DNA from: Nereocystis luetkeana
Taxonomy: Eukaryota > Sar > Phaeophyceae > Laminariales > Laminariaceae
Assembly: GCA_031213475.1 (NCBI GenBank)
Contig: JARUPZ010000013.1
Coordinates: 11,338,813 to 11,402,812, forward strand
Direction of reading: 5' to 3'
DNA length: 64,000 nt
Below the pieces are notes generated by a model. That model saw only the letters and a program-made list of their open reading frames with translations, searched no databases and was not told the origin of the DNA. Positions within the stretch are counted from its first letter, which is position 1. Every line of letters begins with the position of its first letter. Positions 29,101 to 35,100 of the stretch are shown piece after piece. The translations under genes were made by a program, and so were the position numbers.

Positions 29101-32100
29101 CGCGGCCCTCAAAGTGCATTTTTGTTTTCCGGACAATTATAGTCCGTCACGCCCCTGACTTGCCGCCAATAAAACATGTTTGCCCCCCGACGTGAAGATG
29201 CACTGGAAACTCGATGGAGTCAACAAAAAGCGCGCCTACGAAGACACCACCATTAAAGGCGGATAGCGTTGACGATCAGGCAGAGACTGCAGTTCCGTAT
29301 TTACTCCTTGTTCCACGAAACTGGCTGTGTGCAAGAGCCGTGGCTTCGATGCTGTCAAGATAGCAATCGGGACAATACGAGGCGACGTAGTACAACGTAT
29401 TCCGGGCTAGAGCTTTTGTGTGCTGCTATGATAAACACGATTATATGCCAGTCTTCCTACTGTACATTTGAAAAGACCGGCTGCAGCAACTTGTTGTGCC
29501 TGTCCCCGTTTTTGGACAGGATATATAGACTATCGCGGACGGCATTTGTATTTGTTCACCCAGCGTAGCAATGTGGTGTTGCGACTGCCGCGCCGCTAAC
29601 TTCAAAAGCTTGTCTGAGACCGGTTAAACAAGACGTTGTCAGTTCTCTGCCTTCTTGTGTGGGAAGACAAAGTAGCGTTCTTGCTGCTCAATCGCGTCTA
29701 TACTGCAGGTTCTGGCAGTTGGTGTACGACTAAAGCACCTCAAAGAACAGGCCTGGGGGGACGATTGTCGGTCGGCCCGTGTCGAAAATCGACGAGGCAG
29801 GGATCAGGGCATGCGCGCCTTACTTACTCGGTGTGTGTTAAACTAATAGTTTTCGCTCATCATGTCTTGCTAAAGATCTGTCGTTTCATCTTCATTACTA
29901 TTAATCCGATGGCATTCGTATAAACCAGACCCGCGTGTCTTCTCCGTCAAAACGATTCGTATTTGATTGATCACGGCCGGAGAGTGTCTGTGTCGGTTGA
30001 GCCTCCTTCCAGTTTTCCCTTCACGTGTTTGCTGCTGACTAGGAAAGTCTCCATTCTTTGCTAGCTATAGCTCCCCTGCTCTTGTTCCCCGATATTGCCT
30101 TTTTTATGGTTCATTCTAACTGACGGGCTGCTGGTGGGCAAGCCTGAAAAGAGCGAGCCAGATGGAATTCATTCACTAACAGACGCTGGGGGCGTGACTC
30201 CAACCGCCCCATCCTTGCCATCGCCAGACTTCTCCCCCTCAGCGTTTTCTGCTTCTGCTTGACCGCCGGGAGCATCATCCCTCTCGCGTCCTGCGCCCCC
30301 GTCGTCGGCAGGCTTTCCATTTTCTGCGTCGCTTTCCTCGCCGGCAGAGTTAGCCTCCTCGCCACTCGTCGTTCTCTGTACGGCAAGCCTTTTTTACTAT
30401 GTTTTAGAAAAAGCCTGGCGAACAGCAAACGTCAAGTGACGGGGAGGCTAACTCTGCCAGCGAGGAAAGCGACGCAGAAAATGGGAAGTCTGCGGACGAC
30501 GGGGGCGCAGGACACGACGCGGATGATGCTTCCGGAGATCAAGCAGGAGCAGCAAACGCAGAGATGGAGAAGTCTGACGACGGCGAGGATGGGGCGGTTT
30601 GGGCCACGCCCCCAGCATCTGTCAGTGTGCGCTCCGCAGACTAAATCACGGATTTCCTGCCATGCGAGCGTCTGGAAACAATTGGCGTCTCGAAACGCGC
30701 ACATAGTGACCGCAGAAGGGTGAACCTGCAGGTCCTGTTCCCAGCTATGTATGTAGAATGTTGTCTGAAGAGGTTTGCGACCAAGGCTGTGGTATAGGGG
30801 AAACATTCTTAGGGCTCGCGATAGTGGCTGCCCTATTTTTTTGCCGTTGTCATATCTTTTCATGTTTGGTTTGGATGCTGTACATGCCAACATGTACTTG
30901 TCGGTCACGCTTTGCCAACAGATGTTTTTCAACTCTGTTCTGTGGGCGTGTCGCACAGCGTAGCCACTCGAGAGAGGGGTCCACGTTCCAGGTAGGGTGG
31001 AAATGGGAGTACCCCCCACGACCGCAGCTTGGCCTTTTTTAGACCTGTAGCGCTAGGTACAGAGAGGAATCGGCGTGCATATGCATATCAAAACACGTCT
31101 AAGCAGAAGGTGGGTGCGGCGCAAGTGAGAGAGCGATCGTGTTTTCCTGCAGTACAAAGGGAATAGAACGGTTGAAGTGTGCTGTCACGTGCGCGGAGGT
31201 GGACCCCATATAGGCGTGTCTGGTGGACGCATGTGTAGTATGGGGGTGGTTCAGAGCTAGAATACAGAATGTAAGAGATAGAGAGTTTAAAGCTGTACCA
31301 TACACTTAAGTAGGCGCATGGTGACGTCTCTTCGTGTATTGATTTAAAAGGTGTGGCGTCGGGGGCCTGTCTTCCCCGTAGCCCGACACATTCTGCGATG
31401 TATGTTCTTGTTTCGCAGAAGTGCTTAGAGTGCCGGTTTCCGTAGGACTTTTACGGAGCCGCCAAGGGGTGTGATCACATCACTTTTTAATCTCAAAGTC
31501 AATACGCGTATACGCTTTGTTCAGAGCGATGCCTCTGGTGCGGCAGTTGTATTGAACTTCTTGTCGTTCTTGTGACCCTTCAGGAGGCTTGGATCCAATT
31601 TACCCCATCTGCACAGAGGGTTTCGTATTCCCGTTTTTATGCAGTACCTCCAGAGTAATCACCAACTTCTGGAGTGTTACAGGGTCTGATATAAGTGCCT
31701 GCCCCCTGGAGTGTGGTTCTGACTATTAAGGATGGACCCATCCCACAGTAGGGGTCCACCTCAGACGTTCCCGAGCCCCTCACACTAGGAGCTTAATATA
31801 TCACCCGATACAATACTTGGAAGAAATTCGTTGGTGCCACCCGACCGGCACTTGTATGCGCTAGTCCTGAAACAAGAATAGGCGTAAAATGTTTATCCTA
31901 ACTGGCAGTTCCTCACTTAAGGAACTCAATTGGTCAGAAGCCTTTGGCCCAAAGATGCTCTATAGCTGGTATAGGTTATACATGCAGTGACTTCCTCCAT
32001 AGGTATGAGCGCTCAAACCCCAGGAGGGTAACATATTCTGCTGGAGAGCTTTACCCCAATTTACTCTATTATAGAGTGGATCTATGGAATCTAAAGGGGT

Positions 32101-35100
32101 ATCCAGGAAAGCTCTAGAGGGTTTGGCAACAGGCTTAACTCCCTCTAGAGGCATTCGAGCAGACCTCTAGAGGGTATAATATATGTGTAACCCTCTAGAG
32201 GTTCGTCAATCAATTTCCTCTATAAATCGTGTAACACCCTCCAGAGGGTTCAGGCCATAAGTATCCCAGAGGGTTTCTGAACAACTCTAGAGATATTTGT
32301 TCTGATCAGCTCTGGAGGGGCTTTAGCCATATATCTTCTACAGGGTCACATCCACTCAAGAGGATTTTTAGTAAATATTTCCCTCAGGTAGGGTGGTACC
32401 GCATGACTCCAGAGTCACAACCAGTACTATAGAGAGAATCCGTTAAACCCTCATGAGGTAGCATTGCTCATTTAGAGGGCATAATCCATCACCTCTAGAG
32501 GGCTTTGGGCAGGACACATGCACTCTCGAGTTTTTTCCCGCAAAAATATTTTCCCGCAGGCATGGTCGTACTACATGACTCTAGAGGGGCAATCGAGATC
32601 GACACACGACTGTCACGATGGTAGATGGTAGATGGGGTCTGGATTCCCCTCTCGAGGGACGAATCTCCTCCACTCGTAAGCACATCAGATAATTCCTCTA
32701 TATACGAAGTGCTTCAAATCCTCTAGAGCAATCTGTTATTCCCTGTAAACTCTTGATTGTCCCTCTAGAGTCACGGAGTACGACCATACCTGGAGGGAAA
32801 ATACTTGCCAAAAATCCTCTAGGGCGATTGGCGTTTTCCTCTAGAGGATTTTTTGGGGGGAGCCGATTGCACTCAAGACCTCAGTATTTGCCGTACTATA
32901 GAAATGTGATGCATACACACTACAGCAGACCTGTTATATACCGTATCACACTAGGGTGATAGGATAACACACCTCCTGCGAAAAAACTCGAGCCTACAGT
33001 AGATTCTCCGAAGGAAATGGAGCACACAGCCAAAAACAGTGGCTTCGGAAATATGTAGACTATGCGTTTCCATTCGTAGACGCATCGCTTGGCGTTTGTA
33101 CCTTCCCCCACTGTCGAGAAAAACAGCCTCGAAACTCAACCGAAGGTGTCATGCGGTAATCCGATCGTCCCGGGCCCAGCTCCTGTTGGCGGAGCTGGAA
33201 CCTCAAGAGCACACAATCACCCGCGTCGCGAGGGATATTCGACGCGGGAGTGGGCAAAAAAACCCTGCCCCAAAAGGAGCGCGGAACACGTTCGAGAGGT
33301 CTGGGAGTGGGCAAACAGCCCTGCCCAAAAGCCGCGGAACACCGCCAAGAGCCCCCAGGTGACGTCGAGGCCCGAAAAAAATCCACATTCGATACTAACG
33401 ATCTACTGCACAACCAAACAGAGTGATCTCGCTTAAACCGGCCAAAAGGAACCGGGGACAAGAAAAAAAACACACACACACACACACACACACATCTCGG
33501 ACATATCACCGATCCCTACGTAATTTGGCATCTAGATGTTTCAGGGTAGATACATATATTTCTGATCTGTATGTTCTGTATGATCTGTATGGTCTAGCTC
33601 ATGTTGCCGGGTGGGAGCCGTAGAGTCTGCATGATCTAGGACTTGTTTCCTGGGTTCGATCTGCACTATGCAGATCCTGCACAACGTCTCATAACGGCGG
33701 GTTAGGACTTAGATGATATATCTGCTCTACCTGGTATCTGATATATCTGTAGACCGACAGATCAGAAAGATCATGGTCTGTACGAGGTGTGAACGATTCG
33801 CAATCTCAAAGAAGGAGCGAGTCTGGCACATATTGTGACCGACGGAAAATACTCACGGCGCCCTACCGTCGTACCAATAGTTTCTGAGGTGCTCAATTAG
33901 TGAACTGCAGCAGAGGGAGGAGTGTGCTCGTTCGTTTCTTCACCGGCTTCACGTCCACAGGCGCGCGAGTATAGCAGATGCACACGTGCGGATGGCACGG
34001 CACGGCTTGCCGCTGTTGATACGCCTAGAGGCAAGGACTACTGCTGTATTCCCAATGTACCGCCTCGCCTGTTGGAGCGGCCGAGAGCATGGTCCCCTCT
34101 AGTCCCACGGTAACCGCCTCTCGGAACGTGGTTAGGAGACGCTGGGCCAAGCACTGAAGCCTGCAGCTCTCCACCACGTCTTCCTGCGGTCGGGAAGTTG
34201 ACGGATTGGAGGGAAACGACGAACAACAAGCGTGATTACTCGTACCGACGTCGGGGAGATTTAAACCTCGGCGTGAAACTACATACCCGTCTCCTTCCCT
34301 GTTTACTACAGTCTGAACGAAGCAGGTCCTCGGTAGCTGGACAACATCAGGACTAGACATCGGTCAGAACGGCGCGCAGTGTCGACGACGGTACTCGGAC
34401 GGAAACCACACCACAGAGTAACGTTCAAGAGGCACTGGCGGACGGGGGTATTGTGTGGGCTCGTCGGTACTCAATACCTCTCCCCTCCCCCTATGTGACC
34501 TTCGGCATCAGCACACGTGTTGTATCACGGCAAACCCCCCAAGACCACCCGAACAGGAGCATCCGCTTTGTCAATGCGCGGTTCGCGAAACAACGGACTT
34601 GGCCCATAAGCGACAACACACCGCTGGTAACCAAGATCGGAAGCGATCCCCTCTATAAATTAGGTCATAAACGCCTCGCCTGTAGCGTCTGCTGGTGTCT
34701 CAGCGCCACCGAGGCTTCTTCGACGGGGTCCAACCCGACCCACCCTTGCACCACCCCCTGCTCCATGGAGAACAGCAAGGTAGCTTTGGCGGTGTCCGCC
34801 CCTAACAGCTGTGCGACGGGGAAACGACAAGCCAGCGATGGGGAGGAGCAGGCAAAGTATCGGCGCGTCAGTAGCAACAGCGAATCGCCGCCACTTGACA
34901 GCGGGCCGCTATGCTCAGAAAACGTCAAATTACGGCATTTTCGGGGGGGGGGGGGGGCGGGGGGTGACGGACGCCATTTTTCCAAAATACGGCCATGATG
35001 GATAATTGCTCAAGATATTTTGAGCCCCGAGCCAGCGACCACAACGCTGGTATTTTATATCAGGTAGTAACTTTGGTGTCATGAACCATTCAACCGTCTA

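Follow-up and report, generated by a model that had tools for sequence, protein, structure and literature searches.

The locus analyzed here raises the question of why two unrelated palindromic words should each have been expanded into an array within a single stretch of DNA. The stretch, hereafter the window, comprises 64,000 nucleotides of Nereocystis luetkeana (C13:11338813–11402812, in an assembly of 465 Mb and 1987 contigs), and the initial annotation had attributed its two arrays to a shared process acting on palindromes rather than on one sequence. We focused on the array placed at 31640–32870 and found that it most probably represents the subterminal region at the right-hand end of a DNA transposon, old and decayed, that had terminal inverted repeats (TIRs). 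The palindrome would be the conserved word of the end architecture, probably bound by a protein.

The array is built on the octamer CTCTAGAG. Ten exact copies occur in the whole window, every one of them within 32112–32846, in comparison with a mean of 0.50 and a maximum of 3 in 100 shuffles, and the initial count of at least ten octamers in 0.8 kb was thereby reproduced. The 12-base palindromes reported with them were not: Exact CCCTCTAGAGGG is absent from the window, and the one perfect palindrome of 12 bp, at 32837, reads TCCTCTAGAGGA, while the 10-mer CCTCTAGAGG is attained by five copies. Around the exact words there are many degenerate copies, ∼24 bp apart, with spacers that have little sequence in common. 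An iterated 12-bp weight matrix placed 39 sites at 31600–32900, weak ones counted, 28 of them from 32110 onward, and gave up to 1.55 bits of information in the core columns and at most 0.30 bits in the flanking and spacer columns. The palindrome field delimited by the matrix, consisting of degenerate CCCTC-NN-GAGGG sites, extends over 31646–32848, being dense from 32110, sparse leftward, and broken by a repeat at 31735–31953. Across the 18 leading sites of the dense part, the mean spacing was 24.2 ± 3.6 bp (SD), and such regularity was never equaled by random placement in 5,000 trials with weak sites admitted, the test being based on 27 of the 39 matrix sites, a permissive choice, and on a minimum distance that favors regularity. 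With a 7-of-10 site rule, 10 of the 19 gaps from 32100 on were 19–31 bp and the remainder 33–72 bp. Self-alignment also bore out a larger unit that had been described in two direct copies and one inverted copy: The direct copies lie at 32359–32439 and 32544–32598 on the plus strand and the inverted copy at 32738–32820 on the minus strand, with 86% identity between 32544–32598 and 32806–32751 and 76% between 32359–32439 and 32820–32738. The ∼24-bp spacing and the terminus at 32850–32869, described below, are features beyond the initial annotation.

The same palindrome marks the ends of a dispersed family of elements, here called family A. CCCTCTAGAGGG was found 599 times in the genome, in clusters, against 10 occurrences of the reversed word, and many of its copies on contig C1 are spaced at 94, 136, or 230 bp. 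Of eleven C1 stretches taken, L092 belongs to another element; the others aligned with one another at 94–97% identity in their longest matches, and L094 at 82–84%. At the outer array edge, the homology ends at a common edge beyond which the flanks are unrelated, and eight of nine such edges carried the terminus, its outer part being shortened in two cases. The family is ∼6.3 kb long and both ends read CACACGTGGCCAATCGGCTAC..., the left terminus being present in six of the seven stretches examined for it. The terminus core GTGGCCAATCGGCTAC occurs at 172 places in the genome (81 + 91) and a broader form, CACACGTGGNCANNNGGCT, at 91 + 101 places, the control giving zero in both cases. Contig C1 (21.9 Mb) holds 38 of the 172 copies on less than 5% of the assembly. 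Among the 100 core places listed of the 172, 34 of 45 forward places had a reverse partner 5.9–6.7 kb downstream; the other paired forward places among those listed included one at 6705 bp and five at 10.8–24 kb.

Five C1 loci with two ends, namely A, B, C, F, and G, carry the same terminus at each of them, as do three longer copies. Five of these eight copies have 2-bp target duplications (TG, TA, TA, AG, and TT) outside CACAC...GTGTG, the boundary after CACAC having been set post hoc; a sixth duplication (CA), beside a mutated end, was seen by eye only, and B and F have none. The inverted termini, the 2-bp duplications, and the insertion at many places identify family A as a dispersed family of TIR DNA transposons. 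The palindromes are concentrated at both ends and scarce between them: In copy A, CCCTC-NN-GAGGG sites with at least 8 of 10 matches number 10 in the left 0.5 kb and 26 in the right 1.1 kb, with 0.3 per kb inside. The right field of L093 contains a unit of 230 bp in 4.1 repeats at 97% identity. No transposase was found, the longest frame of copy A having 184 aa. The longer copies of 13, 16, and 24 kb were considered as an autonomous partner and set aside; the 13- and 24-kb ones carry copia/gypsy-type (long terminal repeat retrotransposon) frames and no transposase was recognized by eye in the 16-kb one.

A second, diverged end of similar design was provided by L092. This end has CACACGTGG; its terminus, CACACGTGGTCATTTGGCTCCGCCC, agrees with that of family A at 31 of 40 positions, and its field is jittered, with 24 of the 32 site gaps at 18–30 bp. 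In the window, the field stops at 32848, and the minus strand of 32850–32869 reads CAATCGGCTCCCCCCAAAAA, which is identical to bases 11–30 of the family A terminus at 19 of 20 positions and probably represents the inner part of the terminal inverted repeat at the right end of a relic. When the local 151 bp were shuffled 3,000 times, neither this match nor the 22 of 30 across bases 1–30, the best such match in the window, was reached. Counted along the terminus, the first palindrome starts at base 31 in family A, 31 in L092, and 32 in the window. The alignments show an inner terminus and a motif common to the window and family A, with a similar rhythm.

A number of observations weigh against assigning the window array to a transposon end. 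The comparison terminus was chosen after the likeness had been noticed by eye. The outer 10 terminus bases, expected at 32870–32879 on the minus strand, are unrecognizable (3 of 10 matching), and bases 1–20 match no better than chance, as 481 of 3,000 shuffles did as well. A 25-base piece reaches a score of 20 across the window, which exceeds the top score from 20 shuffled windows by just one, and the agreement with the L092 terminus is 19 of 40. No left terminus was found at 20–31.7 kb or at the left edge of the field, nor was a target duplication found for the window copy. With up to three mismatches allowed, the genome contains the 26-base window terminus a single time, and in a genome search 31960–32900 matched itself and four internal stretches alone. 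The likeness among the spacers is slightly above that of shuffled ones (mean −2.42 vs. −2.94, SD 0.22), mostly owing to the duplicated larger unit. Within the family used for comparison, L100 is without a terminus at its array edge and L122 without a left terminus. Because the window terminus is unique at up to three mismatches and 31960–32900 matches only itself and four internal stretches, no sister copy proves that the window copy has moved; because its left terminus was not found, we call it a relic and not an intact member of a TIR element family. Since the outer terminus, the left end, and close genomic copies were not found, the array is best called a singleton relic of what appears to be a related, third family.

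Two explanations dispense with transposition. The array could serve gene regulation in the host, as a homotypic cluster of dimeric transcription factor sites kept by selection for a nearby gene, such as the frame at 27.9–29.0 kb. The concentration of information in the core columns speaks for such a cluster, and the frame, ∼3 kb from the array, is conserved, its two best protein relatives being 84% and 98% identical. A regulatory origin nevertheless leaves unexplained why the same word, rhythm, and inner terminus recur where the elements of a dispersed family end, and we consider it unlikely. Alternatively, the array could be a worn and functionless minisatellite or satellite with a 24-bp unit, which would agree with the quasi-regular spacing of the sites, the 230-bp tandem in family A, and the local duplications in the window array. 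However, neutral decay predicts equal divergence of cores and spacers, whereas the cores keep their information and the spacers almost none; units homologous throughout, spacers included, were not found, and Tandem Repeats Finder reported no array at 31640–32870. This makes a minisatellite quite improbable. We retain the subterminal region of a TIR transposon as the preferred reading of the array.

The other palindrome of the window, CCATGG, apparently belongs to a second palindrome-field element. Its field, at 831–2327 and with 12-bp phasing, has inverted termini at 829–851 and 2307–2329 that read TAC(A/G)TTTGTTGG(A/G)CAG(T/C)CCATGG, with an alignment score of 38, against a maximum of 26 among 500 shuffles. 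The element is edged on each side by TA, which is self-complementary and may be part of the terminus rather than a duplication. Genome-wide there are three occurrences of the terminus word, one at each end of the window element and one on contig C3 beside another CCATGG array, and the array region matches at least 70 other places in the genome at 65–94% identity (40 of 83 candidates scored).

By the terms of the initial annotation, its reading would be refuted if palindrome arrays were no commoner than arrays of nonpalindromic words of equal composition; a small-scale count favored the palindromes and did not refute it. Triples with gaps of 4–24 numbered 2281 for CCATGG and 1115 for GGTACC, in comparison with 353 (231 + 122) for CACTGG and 210 (106 + 104) for GGTCAC, figures that represent one word pair per class with word frequencies not equalized, count overlapping triples of one array repeatedly, and undercount a nonpalindromic motif in mixed orientation; by our own arithmetic, chance would give ∼3 triples per palindrome. 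All but two of the nonpalindromic places listed belong to two tandem loci on C1, and the palindromic places listed are spread over ∼15 loci on C1 and C2. Arrays of other nonpalindromic words also exist in the genome. GGTACC, the reversed control word, itself forms arrays, with 50 triples at an exact 12-bp phase, and the stretch L108 happens to contain, at 2220–3190, a jittered array made of words like CCCATGGG/GACCCATGGGTC.

Of the shared process originally proposed for the two arrays, the common cause was upheld, as both arrays adjoin inverted termini, and the mutational expansion of palindromes as such was not. A mutational or recombinational process multiplying palindromes of any sequence would account for the several palindromes in arrays in this genome and for the direct and inverted duplications inside both window arrays, but it is very unlikely given the termini beside both and the layout of family A, where the sites stop at the terminus and hardly any lie in the interior. 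Since both palindromes are found beside inverted termini, the process common to them is best read as palindrome-bearing transposon ends, only two of the palindromic words having been traced to elements.

How such ends might work can be sketched from their layout. Elements of this group carry a field of palindromic 10–12-bp CCCTC-NN-GAGGG sites just inside their ends, at ∼24-bp intervals. A dimeric protein, either the transposase or a helper that binds DNA and is provided in trans, may bind the sites, much as TNPA recognizes the subterminal repeats of Spm/En, and thereby mark and pair the ends for excision. Elements without the sites would not be mobilized, such that the sites would stay recognizable while the spacers drift. 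The fields may grow through direct and inverted segmental duplication; recombination among palindromes can yield both kinds because palindromes are direct and inverted repeats at once. We tentatively extend this to a class of TIR elements in which one palindromic word per family fills the ends or nearly the whole bodies with a family-specific rhythm (∼24 or 12 bp), the DNA-binding part having possibly switched words repeatedly while the array architecture was kept. The words CCCTCTAGAGGG and CCATGG have been traced to elements, and GGTACC and GACCCATGGGTC perhaps belong to the same class. What appeared as a palindrome oddity becomes a testable transposon architecture, and several natural arrays of different dimer-like words, each with a fixed rhythm and all within one genome, could make the rules of site recognition and change readable from sequence. 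Dense palindrome clusters in noncoding DNA need not be enhancers.

Other repeats lie in and around the array. The interval 31640–32870 was confirmed as an array, except that 31735–31953 inside it is a separate dispersed repeat of ∼220 bp. This plus-strand repeat resembles a miniature inverted-repeat transposable element, has at least 39 other genomic matches at 86–89% identity (40 of 1443 candidates scored), and, by visual comparison of the ends, is without the right-hand terminus present in its other copies. No frames of 100 aa or more overlap 31640–32870, just two Pfam matches, both under the cutoff, were obtained for 20 long frames from other parts of the window, and no RNA genes were found in the window. 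The window looks eukaryotic, with low-complexity frames and long triplet repeats in addition to the conserved frame at 27.9–29.0 kb. One kilobase left of the field, 30174–30627 forms a long inverted repeat with 223-nt arms of 84% identity and 8 nt between them. A dispersed repeat of ∼220 bp is present in three copies (25493–25714, 43598–43818, and 55223–55450; 80–82% identity). A short element with 30-bp inverted ends lies at 37823–37932, and an 81% copy of it is found at L092 4577–4687, inside the L092 palindrome field. At 53614–54060, a degenerate array of the nonpalindromic pentamer TATCG, with an autocorrelation of 0.55 at lag 5, has the look of a decayed microsatellite.

Similar words and similar layouts are known from other systems. 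The viral contig L003 contains an operator-like triple, GCCTCTAGAGGC/GCCTCTAGCGGC, in which an almost identical palindrome is repeated three times at close range. The triple adjoins a frame that by eye resembles a helix-turn-helix repressor, and it suggests that such a word could be a dimer site; with three sites, no termini, and prokaryotic or phage DNA around them, the likeness is one of analogy only. In the viral and prokaryotic collections, CTCTAGAG formed pairs in 3 viral stretches and triples in 10 viral and 45 genomic stretches, and the triples were rejected as relatives because their spacing is mostly constant, unlike that of the window array. Viral CCATGG triples (28 stretches) were likewise set aside, as no relation was seen in parts of L011 and all of L025.

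Closer parallels come from transposons. Spm/En has subterminal repeats recognized by TNPA (PMC2613891), and in CACTA elements the subterminal units are 10–20 bp long and occur in both orientations (PMC8978399), their numbers differing between the ends, as in Tgmt*, where one end has 4 repeats in 159 bp and the other has 24 in 732 bp. Family A resembles the CACTA (En/Spm) elements in having units of this length, direct and inverted, inside both ends in unequal numbers, in its CAC...GTG ends, and in its nonautonomous copies; subterminal repeats in both orientations were found in copy A, though palindromic units leave the orientation undefined. It differs in its terminus, CACAC and not CACTA, in its duplication of 2 bp (five of eight copies) vs. 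3 bp, and in its unit, which is itself palindromic and has a ∼24-bp rhythm. Given the differences in terminus and duplication length, we did not accept membership in CACTA. Transposase_21 (PF02992) had no matches in the genome, and 14 control genomes were likewise silent. Muta1, a Mutator-like element of Aedes aegypti with many nonautonomous derivatives, has TIRs filled with many 12-bp subterminal units (PMC5225508) and in this respect is like the array described here, but its duplications are 8–9 bp and its units are in tandem with constant 3–4-bp spacers, in comparison with the 2 bp and the longer, variable spacers here. A narrow search of the open-access literature met no description of rhythmic palindrome fields of this kind in passages of PMC5225508 and PMC3422177. 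As far as these sources go, the subterminal units of CACTA elements and the 12-bp units of Muta1 are the nearest published designs.

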